A stretch of 10,553 nt of DNA from positions 1 to 10,553 of the forward strand of contig PUNP01001016.1 of the NCBI GenBank assembly GCA_003551785.1, in the 5' to 3' direction. This document shows positions 293 to 10,553 of the stretch, in pieces. Positions within the stretch are counted from its first letter, which is position 1; every line of letters starts with the position of its first letter. The notes under the pieces are model-generated. The model did not search any database. It saw only the letters and a program-made list of their open reading frames with translations, and was not told where the DNA came from. Source of the stretch: Candidatus Brocadiaceae bacterium. GTDB taxonomy: Bacteria; Planctomycetota; Brocadiia; SM23-32. The translations under genes and the position numbers were made by a program.

Positions 293-1398
293 ATAATAAT
301 GCAAAAATTAAGCGAGTTGGTGTCTTAACCGGTGGCGGCGATTGCCCCGGACTTAATGCCGTCATCCGCGCAGTGGTTAAATCCGGAATTCAGGACCACG
401 GTGTAGAATTTTACGGTATCGCTGATGGGTATGATGGATTGGTAACCGGAAATATTTCCCCTCTGTCCTGGGATGATGTCAGCGGCATCCTGACCCTCGG
501 CGGAACGATCCTGGGCTCTTCTAATAAAGCCAACCCCTTCGCCTATTACCCGCCCGACCAAAAGGATAAAAAACCACAGGATATGTCTGATACCTGCATG
601 GAGAATGTCGATAAACACCAACTCGACGCTATCGTTTGTATCGGGGGCGACGGCACGCTCAGCATTGCAGATCGCCTCAATAAAATGGGAATACCCACCG
701 TCGGAGTGCCTAAGACCATTGATAATGATGTTTGTGAAACTGATGTCACTTTCGGATTTGACACTGCGGTGCAAATCGTAGCCGATGCCGTTGACCGGCT
801 CCATACTACCGCCCAGTCACATCAGCGGGTTATGGTAGTGGAAACCATGGGGCGGTATGTAGGTTGGCTGGCGCTGATGGGCGGACTCGCCGGAGGCGGA
901 GATGTTATCCTGATACCTGAAATACCGTATGATTTCAATACCGTCTGCGATTTCCTTGCGGAAAGAGCAAATACAGGGCGCAGGTTCAGTATTGTCGTCG
1001 TAGCTGAAGGTGTAAAAACGCCTGCCGGCAGCTATATTGAGCGTGATCAGGTAAAAGAGAGCCATGATCCGCGACGGTTGGGAGGCATTGGAACTTATCT
1101 TGCATCTGAAATTGAAGATGCTATCCGCGTTGAAGCCCGCTCGACCGTCCTCGGACACCTTCAGAGAGGCGGAACACCGACCGCTAGGGACAGAGTGTTG
1201 GCTACACAGTTCGGACACCACGCTATGTCGGCCGTTGCACGTGGAAACTTCGGCGTGATGGCCGCCCTCAAAGGAACCGAGATAACGAGCGTCGCACTCG
1301 AAAAAGTCGCTGAAAAACAGCGCAGCATCAATCCGAATGAACAAATTGTTAAAACGGCTAAAGCCGTAGGAACTTGCCTGGGAGATATTGATGATTAA
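289..1398 (+). CDS. pfkA: 6-phosphofructokinase, mixed-signature (group III-like)
   Basis: Cytoplasmic glycolytic kinase forming fructose 1,6-bisphosphate from fructose 6-phosphate. The 369-residue product has the N-terminal phosphate-binding loop GVLTGGGDCPGLNAVIR (11-27), GGDGT (119-123), PKTIDND with the catalytic Asp (141-147), the sugar-binding ETMGRYVGW (185-193) and GHLQRGGTPTARDR (289-302). In E. coli numbering the donor-site residues are Gly104 (as in ATP enzymes) and Lys124 (as in pyrophosphate enzymes). This combination is known from actinobacterial-type ATP-dependent enzymes, so ATP is the likelier donor, but pyrophosphate is not excluded. The length fits that group and is longer than the roughly 320 residues of E. 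coli PfkA. The start is ATG 289, preceded by AAGG at 279-282 with a 6-nt spacer, and it overlaps the ankyrin gene's stop. The 3' end overlaps the next gene by 8 bp. Family certain, phosphoryl donor less so. Confidence 0.95.
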   Translation: MNNNAKIKRVGVLTGGGDCPGLNAVIRAVVKSGIQDHGVEFYGIADGYDGLVTGNISPLSWDDVSGILTLGGTILGSSNKANPFAYYPPDQKDKKPQDMSDTCMENVDKHQLDAIVCIGGDGTLSIADRLNKMGIPTVGVPKTIDNDVCETDVTFGFDTAVQIVADAVDRLHTTAQSHQRVMVVETMGRYVGWLALMGGLAGGGDVILIPEIPYDFNTVCDFLAERANTGRRFSIVVVAEGVKTPAGSYIERDQVKESHDPRRLGGIGTYLASEIEDAIRVEARSTVLGHLQRGGTPTARDRVLATQFGHHAMSAVARGNFGVMAALKGTEITSVALEKVAEKQRSINPNEQIVKTAKAVGTCLGDIDD

Positions 1399-4291
1399 TA
1401 ATGAGAGAATCCCCGTTATTGGCGATGTCGATATTATTGTTGTCGGCGGCACAACCGCCGGCGTGGCCATCGCTTGCGCAGCCGCACATAAACATTCAAA
1501 AGTATTCCTTGCTACCAGCGAAACTTACCTCGGCGAGGATATTTGTGCCTTAGGCCGATACTGGTTCGATGAAAACGATTGTGAGGTTTCCCCATTACTT
1601 AAGAAGATATTGGCCGATGAAAACGGGGATCTCCATTCACCAGTTAAACCGTTAAGTGTAAAACTCAACCTGGATACCGCATTGTTGAACTCGGGAGCTT
1701 ACTTCTTGTTCGATTCTCATCCTTCCGACCTGCTATTAGATGAGAATGGCGCCGCCTCCGGCGCTGTATTTACCGGTAAGTCCGGCCCCTTTGCTGTCAA
1801 AAGCAAGTACGTAGTCGACGCCACGCTCATGGCGAAATTAGCGCGTTCCGCCGGCTTGCCTTTCACCCACTGGGATGGTGGAAAACTGACTTTCAAAAAA
1901 ATTGCGGCGGGCAATTTGACAGCGAAACATGCCTGTGATCAAAAACGTATTCTGCCCGGTGTTCTGGTCGATGAGTCCATAGAGGATTCCGGTGGTTTAC
2001 AGGCCGCTGAATACAGCAAAGATATCTACCTTCAGGCATGGAACCCCGCCGAATTAAACAGAGCGGAACAATTGATGAGAGATGCGACCTGGAACCCCGG
2101 TCAATTATGGGCATCAGACATGTCCGCCGTCGTGCCGCCTGTTCACATTGACGGCGCCGGCCTCAAGGATTTAGTGAGTATTGGCGGTGTACAGCCGGAT
2201 ACTTTTCAGACGTCAGTTGAACGCTTTTATGTTTCAGGGCCCTGTGCCGCCGTTCCCAGGAATACCGCTTCTCAGCTCATGACCCCCCAATTCTGCATAC
2301 CTGCGGGCAATATTCTTGGAAAATATCTTTCCAAAATGGTTCATCAAATACCTGATGAACAGAATCAGAACACCCTTATCTCTCCGAAAAATACCCAGCA
2401 TACTCTGGAATATAATGTTTCTGAACCGGTCTCCGGCAGCAGGTTCGAGCGAGATTGCTCCGAATCACTGCCGGCGCCCGCCGGTCTCAACCTCCCCACA
2501 CTCGGCACATTTGATGTCGTTGTTGCCGGCGGAGGCACGGGAGGCGCTCCCGCCGCCATTTCCGCTGCGCGTAAAGGCGCCAATGTACTGCTGCTGGAAT
2601 CGCTGTCCGGGTTGGGAGGTGTCGGGACGCTCGGTCTCATAGGCAAATATTATCACGGCTACCGTGAAGGATTCACCGCTGAGATGACAGAGGGCATGCA
2701 GAAAATGGCCTCTGAGGCCGGTATGGAAGACTTCGACCCCGCTTCGTGGAAAATCGAACATAAATCGGAATGGCTCCGAAAAAACATTAAAGATGCCGGC
2801 GGGCAAATATGGTATAACTCAAAGGCTACCGGAGCACTGCTGAGAAATAAACGTCTGCAAGGCGTCATAGTCAATACGCCGTGGGGCCGCGGTGTGATTG
2901 AAGCCAAAATCGTTATCGACGCAACAGGCAATGCTGATATCGCCTCTGCCGCAGGTGCTGAGTGTAAAATCGTAAGCGAAGACGACCTCGCCGTACAAGG
3001 AAGCGGGCTCCCCCCCCGACCTCTTGATCGTGCATACTTCAACACCGATTATACTTTCATCGATGACAACGACCAGGTGGATATTACAAGGGCATTCCTG
3101 GCTGCACGACGTAAATATAATGGACAGTTTGACCTCGCCCAAATTCCGGACACCCGCGAACGTCGCCAGATCGTGGGGGATGTCACACTCACCCCCTATG
3201 ATGTCTATACCTCAACTAACTGGCGGGATGCCATTTGTTTGAGCAGAAGCAATTTTGACAGCCACGGCTTTACCGTCCACCCGCTTTTCTTCATTCAGCC
3301 GCCCGACAGAACAAGTTTTGATGTGTGGGTGCCTTTACGCGCCCTGTTGCCAAAAGGGTATGAAGGCTTACTCGTCACCGGCCTGTCCCTGAGCGCCCAC
3401 CGCGACGTCATGCCGGTGCTGAGAATGCAGCCGGATGTGCAGAACCATGCCTATGCCGCCGGAGCGGCGGCCGCCATGGCTGTAAAAGCTGATACTCCTC
3501 TCCGTGATATCGACATCCATCAACTGCAATTGCTTTTGGTCGATAAAGGTATTTTGCCGCAGCATGTGTTCATTTCCAAAGAGAATGAAGGGATGCCGGC
3601 CCCCCCATCGACAATACAAGCCGCGGCCCGGGGAGAATTGCACCATCATTCTGAATTGTCCATTTTAATGCAGAACCCGGATCGCTCAATACCACTTATC
3701 CGTAAAAGGCTTGTCACTGAAAATGATGCGGAAAAAAGGGTGCTCTGTGCGAAACTGCTGGCCTTCATGGGCGATGAAACCGGTGAAGATATACTCATCG
3801 AAACGGTCGATTCGCAAGCCTGGGACCAAGGCTGGAACTATCGGGGAATGGGCCAGTTCGGTCGCAGCATGAGTTTTGTTGATGACTGCATCGTCGCCCT
3901 GGCGCGGATTAAATCCCGAACGGCCAATGAGGTATTGCTCAATAAAGCGGCTGAGCTCAGTCAGGAACATGAGTTCTCCCATTTCCGGGCAGTCTCGCTG
4001 TATGCTGAATCTGTGAAAAGCGAAAGTTGGGCGGAACTGCTCGCCGAGTTGTTAAACAAAGATGACATGTCAGGACATGCGATTCTTGCCTTCCGTGATG
4101 CATTAGCCCATATACCTGAAAGCGGCACGGATAACACAACCAGAAACGCTGCATTGCGCGAGCTTTACCTCGCCAGAGCCTTGTATCTTTGTGGTGACCT
4201 GGATGGAACGGCGAAGCAAATACTTCAAAGTTACAGTAAGGATGTGCGGGGGCACTTTGCAAGGTATGCGGACAATCTGCTGCGAAAGTAA
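1391..4291 (+). CDS. Tandem FAD-dependent oxidoreductase with HEAT-like C-terminus
   Basis: The 966-residue protein holds two FAD-binding modules of the PF12831-like type. The first (about 12-340) starts with DIIVVGGTTAGVAIA (14-28), lacks much of the middle domain, and closes with a region around FYVSGPCAAVPR. The second is complete (about 372-715): FDVVVAGGGTGGAP (374-387), VIDATGNAD (508-516), and the C-terminal FAD motif VTGLSLSAHRD (662-672) followed by QNHAYAAGAAAAMA (684-697). Residues from about 760 to the end are alpha-helical and look like HEAT repeats. No signal peptide is visible, so it is probably cytoplasmic; the substrate is unknown. ATG 1391 is preferred over TTG 1388 because GGGAG (1380-1384) lies 6 nt before the ATG. 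The start lies inside the phosphofructokinase gene (8-bp overlap), which implies coupled expression. The first module may be non-catalytic, possibly structural; that is inference. Confidence 0.85.
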   Translation: MINNERIPVIGDVDIIVVGGTTAGVAIACAAAHKHSKVFLATSETYLGEDICALGRYWFDENDCEVSPLLKKILADENGDLHSPVKPLSVKLNLDTALLNSGAYFLFDSHPSDLLLDENGAASGAVFTGKSGPFAVKSKYVVDATLMAKLARSAGLPFTHWDGGKLTFKKIAAGNLTAKHACDQKRILPGVLVDESIEDSGGLQAAEYSKDIYLQAWNPAELNRAEQLMRDATWNPGQLWASDMSAVVPPVHIDGAGLKDLVSIGGVQPDTFQTSVERFYVSGPCAAVPRNTASQLMTPQFCIPAGNILGKYLSKMVHQIPDEQNQNTLISPKNTQHTLEYNVSEPVSGSRFERDCSESLPAPAGLNLPTLGTFDVVVAGGGTGGAPAAISAARKGANVLLLESLSGLGGVGTLGLIGKYYHGYREGFTAEMTEGMQKMASEAGMEDFDPASWKIEHKSEWLRKNIKDAGGQIWYNSKATGALLRNKRLQGVIVNTPWGRGVIEAKIVIDATGNADIASAAGAECKIVSEDDLAVQGSGLPPRPLDRAYFNTDYTFIDDNDQVDITRAFLAARRKYNGQFDLAQIPDTRERRQIVGDVTLTPYDVYTSTNWRDAICLSRSNFDSHGFTVHPLFFIQPPDRTSFDVWVPLRALLPKGYEGLLVTGLSLSAHRDVMPVLRMQPDVQNHAYAAGAAAAMAVKADTPLRDIDIHQLQLLLVDKGILPQHVFISKENEGMPAPPSTIQAAARGELHHHSELSILMQNPDRSIPLIRKRLVTENDAEKRVLCAKLLAFMGDETGEDILIETVDSQAWDQGWNYRGMGQFGRSMSFVDDCIVALARIKSRTANEVLLNKAAELSQEHEFSHFRAVSLYAESVKSESWAELLAELLNKDDMSGHAILAFRDALAHIPESGTDNTTRNAALRELYLARALYLCGDLDGTAKQILQSYSKDVRGHFARYADNLLRK

Positions 4292-7520: not shown

Positions 7521-8363
7521 TCAGAACCCGACCCGCAAGCCGGTAAACACACGCCAGTCGGCGGCACCGTATCCACGCCCGGGCCCGTAGGTGGCGCCGC
7601 AGGTGAGTGCCGACCCACCAAAATCGTACCCTGCCGAGACCAGCCCCTCAAAAGGTGAATGCCTGCTATCATCCAGGCTTTCACTCCGGCCAAAAAGTTC
7701 GGCCGTTAAGTGCACCGGCAGCTCGGGCAGGTCATAGACCAATCCAGCACCAAAGAGCAGCGAATGGTTGATGTTGATCTGCGCGAGTGAGCGACGCGAC
7801 TGATAACGATAACCGACATTAACGCTGCCTTTCAGATTCTCGTTGATATCCCTGTCGGCTATCAACCGGAAACCCGAAGCCACTCTGCTGCTCCCGATCA
7901 GGGCGTCGCTGCTGCCCGTATCCAGATTAACATACGGAGCAACGGCGAACCTGAGTTCCTCCACATCAAGCGGCAGCGTGTATTTGGCCGCGAGCGACAA
8001 ATCACCCAAACCATACTTGTCTATGTCATCGAGGTCTGAATCCTGATCGATCACATAAGGAACCGACAGTGACACCTGGAGCGATTCCCTGACACCGTAG
8101 GCCAAGGACGCCTGGGCAAGGTGCTGATTTTCAGCCACATCAATACGCTCGCCGGCGGCACCCCGCCCTTCGAGCATCGTACCGGCGAGGGAGTAAAAAA
8201 GACTTCCGGACCATTCTCCTTCCCCGACGGTGTCCGCGGTAGGAACCACCACCGTTTTATCCTCGCCCGGCGCCGTTTCGAAGTGGTTGATGTCCGCACC
8301 ATGAGACACACCTGCGCCAACCGCCAGGCACAAAAGCATTGTCAGCAACGATTTTCTCAGCAT
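7521..8363 (-). CDS. Outer-membrane beta-barrel protein, probable internal or separate start
   Basis: This 280-residue segment has everything a separate gene needs. ATGATG (8366 down to 8361) is preceded by AGGGAG; the second ATG has a 7-nt spacer and is preferred. The product begins with a signal peptide, MLRKSLLTMLLCLAVGAGVS, cut after SHGA (residue 23). The mature part is a chain of amphipathic beta-strands with the motif YGLGDLSLAAKY (117-128), typical of the PF13557-like (MetA-pathway/transporter) barrels. It ends VFTGLRVGF, with the terminal phenylalanine recognised by the BAM assembly machinery. It shares its frame with the upstream CFI-box protein, so it may also be made as that protein's C-terminus. 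As a separate protein it would be an outer-membrane channel or a partner for the surface protein; the cargo is unknown. Confidence 0.65.
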   Translation of the reverse strand: MLRKSLLTMLLCLAVGAGVSHGADINHFETAPGEDKTVVVPTADTVGEGEWSGSLFYSLAGTMLEGRGAAGERIDVAENQHLAQASLAYGVRESLQVSLSVPYVIDQDSDLDDIDKYGLGDLSLAAKYTLPLDVEELRFAVAPYVNLDTGSSDALIGSSRVASGFRLIADRDINENLKGSVNVGYRYQSRRSLAQININHSLLFGAGLVYDLPELPVHLTAELFGRSESLDDSRHSPFEGLVSAGYDFGGSALTCGATYGPGRGYGAADWRVFTGLRVGF

Positions 8364-10553
8364 CATCTTTCTCCCTTTTACAATGAGAAGGATCAGGAGT
8401 GCAGCAGCCGTAAGCAGCATAATCAGGCTGCCGTATCCGCTGACTGCCAGGAAGGCGAGTCCGGCCACTGGTAGCAGTGCGGCAGCGGCCAGTGTCCTCA
8501 ATACCGGACGCTGCGCAACGGCCGACGCATAACGCGGGCTGTGCGCATAATAAGTTTCGACCAGGCGGGTACCGGGACGGTTGGTTAACAGGTACATGTC
8601 CCTGAACCGTCTGAGCACTTCAACATGCACCGAATCACATGACCCGAACGCGGCGGTGGCGATAAAGCAGTCCCCACTGCCGCCGGAAATGCGATCAACG
8701 GGGCTGACCGGCCTTCTCGCGCTGCCCACGGCGAATGTGCGGCCGCTGAAATCGTCCAGTGACGGGCTGGTAGCCTCACCGATGGTGATCCGTATGTACC
8801 CGTCATACCCGTACTGTTCAAATCCGGGCAGCGGCTCGTCGAACACCTCCTGATGCGAGCACTCCACCCACTGCTCATCGTCAAACCAGAAAATAACTTT
8901 GCTTGATGGTTCTCGGTAATGTATATCCAGCGTAATACTGGTCAAGCCCTCCTTATCAGTGATAACAAGTTGGGTGTAGACTACATCCTCATCGGCCCCG
9001 TCGAAAACCACTCCCGTCGGGTTTTCGCCCGATACGGAGGCAGAGGCCTCTCCGCCATCGCTTTCAAGCCCCAGCCCCTGCTCGGGATCCTCGGATCGGG
9101 GTTCGTCTGTGGAGACGGATGTGCCGCGTCCTTTGCTTTCAGCACCGGTCCACGGCCTGAATTCCACATTGCCGGAGACCCCATCGCCAACTCCGTCGGG
9201 GTTGTCCGTTTCGTGGTAAGGTCCCGTCCTGTGTCCCCACCAGTTATTGGCGGCCTTCAGCGCCTCGTCACCGTCCCAGACCGCACCGGCGCCGTTGCCG
9301 ACGATGTTGTTGTGCGTGGCTCGGGTATCTTCGGGCGACTTACCCGGTTCATTCATTATGGCCGCATCGGTATTGCGCAACAGCCTGTTGTTGAGTATTC
9401 TGGTAGCTTTGGCGGAGCCTCCGATACCTATGCCTACTTCGGCATCCTCGATGCTGTTGCCCCGGATTCTGGCGCCCGTGCCATCGACCACTATAGCGAT
9501 CTCGGCATGCGCCTCGAACTCCTCGCAGTATCCGTCCAGGACGTTATCCACAATCCTGACGTTATCGCCGCGGATCAGTATACTGTGCTCATGGAACCCC
9601 CTTATCGTGAATCCTTCCACGGTAACATCATCGGCGCGTATGTGCATGGCCCTTTCCCCGCCTTCAGCATCGATGAACGTCTGGTTCCTGCCGTGGGTTG
9701 AGCGCAGGGTAACGCCTTCGACATTTATATCCAGCGTTTCGGCGGCAGTAAAGTCGCCGGGCCCGATTTCGATGGTATCTCCGGGCTCCGCCCGGTTGAT
9801 TTCACCCTGCAGTGCCGTTACGAAAACCGCTCTCAGGGTTTTTTCATCGCCAGCATCGCCGTCAACGTTGATCGGGTTGGCATCACCAATGTTCTGGTCG
9901 TCAAGCCGCCAATGCGCCAGTTCCCAGCCGTCCGCGGGCTTGGCGAGCACCTCGACATCTTCTTCAATGCTGTAAACATGGTCGCCGGTGCCGGGTTCGG
10001 TTGTGCCGTGGCCGACCGGATCAGCTACATTAAGCGTCCAGGGAGCTAATATATCTGCGGTCGCCGTCGGAGCGCTGGCGAGCGAGAGCGTATAATTATG
10101 CGCATCGTCACCGTCCAATCCCGCATCGGTGATGTTGACCATTATGCCCTCGCCGGCATTTGCCTGCGCGAATTCGACCACCACACCGATGAGGTCTACA
10201 TCATCTTGTCCCACAAAATTGAGCAGCACCAGATTGTTGTCTTTGATCACTGCACCGGTAGTGCCGTCGTAGGGTTTATCGTACGCGGTAAAGGTGCCGC
10301 CGATGATCAGTTCCTTCGCCATGATATCGGCTGCTGCCGTCGGAGCGCCTTCAAGTGAGAGCGAATAATTATGCGCATCGTCACCGTTCAGATCCGCATA
10401 GGTGATATTGACCGTTATGCCGTCGCCGGCATCCGCCTGCACGAACTCGACCACGACGCCAGTGAGGTTCACATCGTCTCCTGCAACCGCATTCTCGAGC
10501 GTCAGGCTGTCCTCATCAATCGAGGCTGTCACGGTTCCGTCATAGATTTTATC
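7521..10553 (-). CDS. Surface beta-helix protein with CFI-box anchor, fused in frame to a beta-barrel (5' end off window)
   Basis: One frame of 1010 residues enters from the right edge without a stop. Residue numbers count from that edge. YDG-type repeats begin DKIYDGT (1) and DKPYDGT (92). An InlB-like repeat follows (171-245, with GWELAHWRLDD). A right-handed parallel beta-helix spans 246-470, with turns such as ITLDI/VTVEGFTIRGF/NVRIVDN and the NNWWG motif (436-440). A beta-sandwich resembling the choice-of-anchor domain (514-610) ends SLDDFSGRTFAVGS. The CFI-box anchor starts CFIATAAFGS (629-638) and carries RRFRDMYLLTNRPG and hydrophobic helices at about 686-704 and 709-725. No stop separates it from a signal peptide and outer-membrane barrel starting at 730. 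The GTG at 10532 is not a real start, since YDG sequence continues upstream of it. It is probably a secreted, surface-anchored protein; ligand or enzymatic activity unknown. Either a true fusion or two genes. Confidence 0.8.
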   Translation of the reverse strand, partial: DKIYDGTVTASIDEDSLTLENAVAGDDVNLTGVVVEFVQADAGDGITVNITYADLNGDDAHNYSLSLEGAPTAAADIMAKELIIGGTFTAYDKPYDGTTGAVIKDNNLVLLNFVGQDDVDLIGVVVEFAQANAGEGIMVNITDAGLDGDDAHNYTLSLASAPTATADILAPWTLNVADPVGHGTTEPGTGDHVYSIEEDVEVLAKPADGWELAHWRLDDQNIGDANPINVDGDAGDEKTLRAVFVTALQGEINRAEPGDTIEIGPGDFTAAETLDINVEGVTLRSTHGRNQTFIDAEGGERAMHIRADDVTVEGFTIRGFHEHSILIRGDNVRIVDNVLDGYCEEFEAHAEIAIVVDGTGARIRGNSIEDAEVGIGIGGSAKATRILNNRLLRNTDAAIMNEPGKSPEDTRATHNNIVGNGAGAVWDGDEALKAANNWWGHRTGPYHETDNPDGVGDGVSGNVEFRPWTGAESKGRGTSVSTDEPRSEDPEQGLGLESDGGEASASVSGENPTGVVFDGADEDVVYTQLVITDKEGLTSITLDIHYREPSSKVIFWFDDEQWVECSHQEVFDEPLPGFEQYGYDGYIRITIGEATSPSLDDFSGRTFAVGSARRPVSPVDRISGGSGDCFIATAAFGSCDSVHVEVLRRFRDMYLLTNRPGTRLVETYYAHSPRYASAVAQRPVLRTLAAAALLPVAGLAFLAVSGYGSLIMLLTAAALLILLIVKGRKMMLRKSLLTMLLCLAVGAGVSHGADINHFETAPGEDKTVVVPTADTVGEGEWSGSLFYSLAGTMLEGRGAAGERIDVAENQHLAQASLAYGVRESLQVSLSVPYVIDQDSDLDDIDKYGLGDLSLAAKYTLPLDVEELRFAVAPYVNLDTGSSDALIGSSRVASGFRLIADRDINENLKGSVNVGYRYQSRRSLAQININHSLLFGAGLVYDLPELPVHLTAELFGRSESLDDSRHSPFEGLVSAGYDFGGSALTCGATYGPGRGYGAADWRVFTGLRVGF
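8361..8376 (-). promoter_or_regulatory. Ribosome binding site and double ATG at the fusion junction
   Basis: Read on the minus strand, AAAAGGGAGAAAGATGATG spans the end of the anchor helix codons (IVKGRK) and the start of the barrel's signal peptide. AGGGAG is 4 nt from the first ATG and 7 nt from the second. A well-formed site at exactly the point where a signal peptide begins argues that ribosomes start here whether or not upstream translation reads through. Confidence 0.65.
10047..10553 (-). repeat. Tandem 273-bp coding repeat (YDG domains)
   Basis: Two copies of a 91-codon unit; the shared word ATTATGCGCATCGTCACCGT on the plus strand recurs exactly 273 bp apart (its ATG at 10098 and 10371). 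Nucleotide identity stays high through the second half of each unit, including silent positions, which indicates recent duplication or gene conversion. The array runs off the right edge, so more copies are likely. YDG repeats are stalk-like modules in secreted proteins. Confidence 0.8.

Follow-up and report, generated by a model that had tools for sequence, protein, structure and literature searches.

A CFI-box-tagged protein in one open frame with a TraB-like barrel in a Brocadiaceae bacterium: a candidate tag-plus-barrel polyprotein

The open frame and its parts

The DNA analysed here, referred to as the window, is a stretch of 10,553 nucleotides (nt) from Candidatus Brocadiaceae bacterium (assembly GCA_003551785.1, contig PUNP01001016.1), and its subject is a gene at one end in which a presumed surface protein bearing a CFI box, a putative sorting tag, reads in frame into a second signal peptide and an outer-membrane barrel. 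The open reading frame (ORF) proceeds on the minus strand from 10553 without interruption to a stop codon at 7523-7521, and its 5' end lies beyond the window edge; the N-terminus of the passenger, the portion ahead of the tag, is outside the window, as would be any signal peptide of the passenger's own. The first-pass annotation of this DNA had described a CFI-box protein running in frame into a signal peptide and barrel, with no stop and with a Shine-Dalgarno (SD) site and double ATG at the junction, a description confirmed by the NF041770 match of the tag and by the barrel in an AlphaFold2 (AF2) model. The parts follow one another in the order YDG repeats, beta-helix, Gly/Ser linker, CFI box, hydrophobic helix, KGRK, signal peptide and barrel, with the following coordinates.

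7521..10553, minus strand: whole open frame, 1010 amino acids (aa) plus stop, from the ORF reading
10080..10316, minus strand: YDG domain of the passenger, the better-scoring of two stretches (Pfam PF18657, 82.3 bits, best at aa 80-158)
9270..9632, minus strand: right-handed beta-helix region of the passenger (Pfam PF13229, 31.7 bits, aa 308-428)
8466..8669, minus strand: CFI-box domain (CFIATAAFG..., Cys first), following the Gly/Ser linker (NCBIfam NF041770 CFI_box_CTERM, 78.8 bits, aa 629-696)
8379..8429, minus strand: hydrophobic helix of the tag, SLIMLLTAAALLILLIV, read from the sequence, its topology presumed
8367..8378, minus strand: basic residues KGRK, read from the sequence and presumed to flank the tag helix on its cytoplasmic side; the SD site lies within their codons
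8371..8375, minus strand: Shine-Dalgarno-like GGGAG in the sequence, 4 bases ahead of ATG ATG
8298..8366, minus strand: internal signal peptide MMLRKSLLTMLLCLAVGAGVSHG, opening with the internal ATG ATG, with Ser at -3 and Gly at -1 of a cleavage site judged by eye
7524..8297, minus strand: predicted mature 12-strand outer-membrane barrel of a TraB-like family, 258 aa (AF2, TraB profile, Foldseek)

The window CFI box passes the NF041770 cut-off of 40 bits, and MYXO-CTERM (TIGR03901) has no match among the NCBIfam families reported for the window protein. Its cysteine codon starts at 8669, the ATG ATG at 8366 (second ATG at 8363). The box is not C-terminal, as 314 aa follow the domain in frame. 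Because the hydrophobic end of the domain (ALLPVAGLAFL) corresponds to the short tails of those CFI proteins that end at this point, a single membrane helix would follow the domain in the window chain. AF2 modelling of tag plus barrel gave a mean predicted local distance difference test (pLDDT) value of 50, too low for any claim on the CFI-box fold.

Modelled alone from 18 aligned sequences, the barrel was given 12 strands with a pLDDT of 88 and a predicted template-modelling score of 0.84, and the window barrel is credible as modelled. The best solved matches in a Foldseek search are the polypeptide transporter FapF (E 8.5e-10) and the COG4313 channel 4rl8 (E 1.7e-9), both sharing the barrel fold at a template-modelling (TM) score of ~0.70 with sequence identities of 12-16%. 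In a one-by-one scan of this barrel family, 14 of 15 members match the TraB profile (NF033763; best E 8.8e-10), all far below its curated cut-off of 700 bits, which applies to the full length including the OmpA part. The window barrel reaches 20.7 bits (E 8.6e-5) over profile positions 38-291 of 522, the barrel part, and the whole window chain 17.3 bits; no Pfam match to an OmpA domain was found in the window protein, whose chain ends at the barrel. Profile-profile alignment (hhalign) of the barrel family with ten Myxococcales loci gave 99.8% over 256 columns, a value that is not independent, the ten loci having themselves been found with this barrel; the four of them that were scanned match TraB with 194-232 bits, best in the OmpA part. 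Judged by these profiles, the window barrel is a member of a TraB-like superfamily, homologous over most of its length.

Fused and overlapping forms of the pair

Thirteen fused loci of the barrel family were found: the window, L001, L002, L041, L003, L004, L005, L068, L069, L072, L073, L075 and L076. L001, L002 and L041, the last from the same genome as L002, are Brocadiaceae fusions, and L068, L069, L072, L073, L075 and L076 come from the phylum of G003 (Omnitrophota). Eleven of the 12 fused loci besides the window have a full barrel, with 28-54% identity to the window barrel; as edge cases among the 13, L041 is cut after the barrel start and the L076 contig begins inside the tag, its CFI motif gone. 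The L005 contig may be misbinned or transferred, since G005 itself is the sole match to the barrel among 68 genomes of its phylum. Kept out of the 13 were P0004, a fused protein with no DNA, and P0002 and P0003, which are the same or near-same genes as L003 and L004, and neither fused nor separate state was assigned to contig-cut, fragmentary or weak matches (L006/L052, L051/L054, L077, L078, L010, P0022, P0023, P0032).

Nineteen loci were found when the genome collection was searched with the barrel alignment, and each of the five close ones with upstream sequence (L001-L005) is a single fused ORF. The protein database, searched with residues 600-1010, yielded 20 proteins (7998 candidates scored), and P0002, P0003 and P0004 span 94-97% of these residues at 44-46% identity with differing passengers. 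Among 294 sampled genomes of the phylum of G001, 34 match the barrel, all weakly except L001 (<=52 bits, L079), and no CFI motif occurs in the 29 other loci returned. The ten plasmid records found match YDG or beta-helix proteins partially, none covering 80% of the query. A run of ~45 open codons is by itself unremarkable; the fusion goes beyond chance because the same in-frame junction recurs in 12 further loci. The window fusion is natural and conserved, not an accident, and the suggestion that a stop codon was lost recently, as a one-off event, is rejected. The search for adjacent or fused homologues that had been proposed as a check thus gave 13 fused loci, the window included, and three overlapping pairs in Omnitrophota.

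In Omnitrophota (35 genomes), 11 genomes have the barrel, in 14 matches comprising eight fused (including L003, L004 and L076), three overlapping and three contig-cut or weak ones. The three overlapping loci hold a CFI gene and a barrel gene in the same order as the fusion, the end of the CFI gene running past the start of the barrel ATG by 8 nt in L071, 8 nt in L074 and 22 nt in L070. Fused L073 and separate L071 and L074 differ by ~1 base after the SD site, AGGAGG(C)AAAATG, which sets the tag in or out of the barrel frame. In the barrel tree the separate L070, L071 and L074 fall into one group with the fused L073 and L069 (support 100/100), and the window groups with Brocadiaceae L001 and L002 and with P0022 (99/98); P0004 and P0022 are labelled in this tree as having no SD site with no DNA for either. 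A search with 15 barrels found 12 proteins, eight of which (P0024-P0031, 284-288 aa) stand alone as protein records and are like the separate-pair group in sequence. In addition, L027 (G002:C408), from a genome carrying two fused copies, is a 2986-aa open frame in which the CFI tag is followed by a tail that terminates close to the usual junction, with no barrel.

The CFI box itself was matched 91 times in the Omnitrophota genomes. That such a box ends its protein shortly after hydrophobic helices and basic residues, as originally assumed, holds for a part of them: in 43 the protein stops behind a hydrophobic helix, and 40 of the 43 have at least two Arg/Lys among the last 14 residues, but 38 end without a helix (3 partial); seven run on into this barrel and three are contig-cut. 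The CFI-barrel pair is fused or overlapping in 10 of the 91 matches, and the barrel is present in 11 of 28 CFI-bearing genomes and in none of the seven without a CFI box. Tails of 95-121 aa are present in 44 CFI proteins (one without helix); three of these have the barrel as the next gene, several having little downstream sequence. The idea that the barrel serves CFI-box proteins is supported for a subset, and sequence associations suggest that it serves particular CFI proteins, not all of them. As a general CFI exporter the barrel is unsupported, given the CFI-bearing genomes with no barrel match (17 of 28) and the three next-gene cases.

Genes with CFI boxes also stand in runs in Omnitrophota (L144, L145, L155, L168, L169 and L170), where the gene that follows often encodes a further CFI-box protein, or else a small secreted one bearing the motif 'ILK[RK]N[IV]F'. 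At L157 and L158 (G008:C92, G013:C38) a secreted porin-like gene starts 182 nt downstream of a helix-tailed CFI gene, possibly another barrel partner. In P0017 (residues 645-952) the frame continues past a CFI box into a stretch resembling a signal peptide and then a barrel-like end, which matches no barrel family, and P0016 and P0021, of the subtilase type (Pfam PF00082), have an internal CFI box with ~100 non-barrel residues after it.

The architecture with a second barrel family

The same architecture was observed with a barrel of another family. In P0008 and P0018, both among the 20 proteins from the protein database, a CFI box is followed in frame by a barrel of the MXAN_2562 family (NF040596; 192 bits and 95 bits, respectively, against a cut-off of 100), and their passengers match the MXAN_2561 family (NF045522) with 43 and 41 bits (cut-off 150), a family whose members are named MYXO-CTERM-anchored by NCBI. 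No profile match relates the MXAN_2562 barrel family to the window barrel, with an hhalign probability of 5.6. The MXAN_2561/MXAN_2562 pair resembles the window gene in architecture, in the alternation of fused and separate forms and in the use of both CFI and MYXO-like tags, but differs in that its barrel is not detectably related to the window's.

In Myxococcota, 215 of the 282 genomes drawn have a match to the MXAN_2562 family. Seventy-five loci (30 returned, 5 from another search and 40 taken as about every third further row with enough flank) were classified by pattern and eye, a sample in which weaker family members are under-represented; 'separate' denotes a tagged ORF whose end lies at most 400 nt upstream of the barrel domain. 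The loci comprise 34 MYXO-like separate, 18 MYXO-like fused, 18 CFI separate, three CFI fused and two untagged, so that a tagged protein is fused to the barrel domain or ends no more than 400 nt upstream of it in 73 of 75, with 21 of 75 fused. L216, flagged both ways, was set to separate by hand, L225 (CFI) is without a CFI motif at a contig edge, and L181 and L232 have degenerate CFI motifs. On a tree of the 75 loci with P0008 and P0018, made by a quick method that leaves 24 of 74 inner branches open, at least seven changes of tag and at least ten of fusion state are counted, the two untagged loci being left out. Taken alone, the well-supported branches force fewer changes: by group, six for MYXO separate, four for MYXO fused, two for CFI separate and one for CFI fused.

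All nine passengers scanned, five CFI-tagged and four MYXO-like, match NF045522 with 22-103 bits, each below its cut-off. The match ends at profile position 277-281, within 3 residues of the CFI cysteine, in the CFI-tagged passengers and at positions 280, 284, 299 and 304 in the MYXO-like passengers, two of four of which reach the TIGR03901 cut-off. Because the matches in both passenger types end near the same profile positions, the CFI box appears to take the place of MYXO-CTERM. With either tag found in both separate and fused form in this pair, the two seem interchangeable.

Origin of the barrel and meaning of the fusion

The junctions were scanned for start codons (ATG, GTG or TTG) that would leave at least 15 residues of signal peptide, beginning three codons ahead of the basic cluster of the tag. 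No start codon is present in the junction stretch of 5 of the 13 fusions of the window barrel family, or of 7 when the count begins at the first basic residue, a narrower count that misses, for example, an ATG just before that residue in L076. A start with an SD core is found at the junction of four (the window, L001, L069 and L073) and is absent from nine; in those four the SD-backed ATG stands 23 codons before the mature barrel, the start position of the separate genes L071 and L074. In the MXAN_2562-family fusions no start is present in 8 of 21 (9 of 21 in the narrower count), and an SD-core start is present in one and absent from 20. With many fusions lacking a junction start, translation must often run through the fused chain and the barrel be set free from it afterwards. 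In all 34 fused junctions (13 + 21), at sites assigned by eye, position -3 is occupied by Ala, Ser, Gly or Val and position -1 by Ala or Gly, and all 13 window-family fusions have an internal signal peptide with acceptable residues at these positions. These residues, together with the shape of the signal peptide, point to signal peptidase I.

The fusion, its conservation, the two-gene form, the TraB similarity and the exchange of tags in another barrel family are observed, and the reading that we hold to be likely is that the window gene is a conserved tag-plus-barrel polyprotein, in which a CFI-tagged surface protein is joined to a TraB-like barrel with a signal peptide of its own and signal peptidase frees the barrel. 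The passenger would be exported by Sec until the tag helix halts it at the inner membrane, KGRK remaining on the cytoplasmic side, whereupon the next hydrophobic stretch would act as a new signal peptide, re-enter Sec and take the barrel across. A cut by signal peptidase I after ...SHG would free the barrel, which would reach the outer membrane through the beta-barrel assembly (BAM) machinery, leaving the CFI-tagged passenger for sorting to the surface, where the barrel is probably its partner as anchor or export channel. The SD site and ATG ATG retained in the window may start extra barrel independently. A polyprotein of this kind has a counterpart in fbcH of Bradyrhizobium, an inner-membrane cytochrome b/c1 polyprotein with no sorting tag that is cut by signal peptidase; it is alike in being a bacterial polyprotein resolved at an internal signal peptide, as proposed for the window.

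An alternative origin of the barrel is a dual product, in which the barrel comes mainly from internal initiation at the SD site and ATG ATG, a form of coupling without a stop, and the long chain is a by-product or minor. The SD-core ATG that the window, L001, L069 and L073 share with separate L071 and L074 argues for it, and with SD and ATG intact two products are possible in the window; as a general rule internal initiation is ruled out by the absent starts, 9 of 13 window-family and 20 of 21 MXAN_2562-family fusions being without an SD-backed start. Retention of the SD site in the window is weak evidence for initiation there because the AGA, AGG and AAG codons of the basic cluster look SD-like by nature, and we regard the dual product as an unlikely main source of the barrel. 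It is somewhat less probable again that the CFI box and the barrel are mere operon neighbours whose fusion is neutral and without functional partnership. The low frequency of the barrel as next gene to the longer-tailed Omnitrophota CFI proteins and the readiness with which fusion state switches on the MXAN_2562-family tree would fit such a view, but two barrel families without detectable similarity each repeatedly adjoin or fuse to a tagged surface protein, and the MXAN_2562 pair is kept while the tag is swapped.

An autotransporter-like single molecule, in which the barrel stays joined and exports or anchors its own beta-helix passenger, had also been suggested, and recalls the classical (type V) autotransporter in that a beta-helix passenger precedes a C-terminal barrel modelled with 12 strands and resembling the polypeptide transporter FapF. 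Against it, a membrane helix, basic residues and a full second signal peptide intervene between passenger and barrel, the same pair also occurs as two genes and Pfam gives no match to an autotransporter domain or family; the proposal is unsupported and, to us, very improbable. An artefact of sequencing or assembly, or a recent loss of a stop codon or of frame in one genome, could draw on the ~1 base that separates fused L073 from separate L071 and L074 near the SD site, but fusion at the same place in 12 further loci, which rules out this explanation as a general one, and the three protein-database records spanning the fused region make it scarcely credible for the window.

Several points weigh against the polyprotein reading. 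The window retains its internal start, so that its barrel could come from internal initiation alone, and in one Omnitrophota group the barrel occurs by itself, in the three overlapping pairs and the eight stand-alone records. The CFI-bearing Omnitrophota genomes without a barrel match, possibly incomplete, are more numerous than those with one, and none of nine TraB-like barrel-OmpA Myxococcales loci (among L007-L017) has a tagged gene directly upstream, some having <1.1 kilobases (kb) of upstream sequence. Searches for CPBP proteases, exosortases and rhomboids in the Omnitrophota genomes identified no CFI-processing enzyme: CPBP proteases, which are of the myxosortase type, occur in 3 of 11 barrel-bearing genomes and 16 of 35 overall, and exosortase in none of the 35. 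The signal-peptide sites and the 75 tag states were judged by eye, aided by patterns, and cleavage, topology, surface location, the partner role and the interaction of passenger with barrel are steps that we infer. Rhomboids are present in 10 of 11 barrel-bearing Omnitrophota genomes and 24 of 35 overall, and a rhomboid gene shares the contig with a fused CFI-barrel gene, within ~25 kb, in G007:C23, G012:C7 and G015:C23, a possible lead to a processing protease.

The tag-barrel architecture is already known in kind from TraA/TraB and MXAN_5598. In Myxococcus xanthus, traA and traB, an outer membrane exchange pair, are reported to overlap by four bases, and mutants of both to have an identical phenotype (PMC3325183). 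The likeness lies in overlapping genes for a tagged surface protein and, after it, a protein of the barrel type, and in the weak but consistent resemblance of the window barrel to the TraB profile; the window differs in having a CFI tag rather than MYXO-CTERM, fused genes, no OmpA and a YDG/beta-helix passenger unlike TraA as described there (PMC3325183). MXAN_5598, an adhesin with MYXO-CTERM tag, barrel and OmpA in one ORF, has been likened to TraA/TraB, with gene fusion and N-terminal processing proposed (PMC11980579), and is entered as an OmpA-domain protein in a mass-spectrometry table (PMC4158809). It shares with the window a sorting tag in mid-ORF followed by an outer-membrane barrel (PMC11980579); the window tag is instead a CFI box with no OmpA part, and a two-gene counterpart and conservation across lineages are seen for the window family. 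Internal MYXO-CTERM motifs are called rare in PMC11980579, yet 21 of 75 MXAN_2562-family loci are fused.

In the open literature searched, 'CFI-box' was not found by name, though it is named in NCBI annotation, nor were MXAN_2561 and MXAN_2562, the CFI-box version of the architecture, its spread, the alternation of overlap and fusion, the common absence of an internal start or the interchange of tags. The tag swap gives the CFI box a testable function, surface display as a substitute for MYXO-CTERM, and the alternation of overlap and fusion suggests a route by which bacteria can produce a secreted protein together with its partner in the outer membrane from a single polyprotein. Automatic annotation could mistake such chains for autotransporters or misplace the barrel start. 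A wider reading, which we advance tentatively and at somewhat less than even chances, would make CFI-box-CTERM a general tag for surface sorting, used in Myxococcota and beyond, that can stand in for MYXO-CTERM, and MYXO-CTERM for it, at one and the same cysteine position but is matured by a different enzyme. Tag-barrel pairs would then be a recurrent two-part display system in which a FapF-like barrel exports or anchors its own tagged partner, the genes alternating between overlapping ORFs and polyprotein because an internal signal peptide makes both forms equivalent.

Related arrangements with other tags were also observed. In L018 and L019 a single ORF comprises a Gly-Cys, helix and Arg-rich tag (not CFI), signal peptide, barrel and OmpA; their available flanks showed no FtsZ/FtsA motifs, giving no neighbour link to MXAN_5598. 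L079 (G189:C1:142988-143632, phylum of G001) has Gly-Cys, helix, Arg-rich tag (not CFI), signal peptide and barrel in one ORF. Elsewhere in the window, positions 1388-4291 encode a 967-aa protein with flavin adenine dinucleotide (FAD) oxidoreductase matches (PF12831, three stretches), seemingly with two FAD-binding parts in one chain, and its gene adjoins a phosphofructokinase gene (289-1398).

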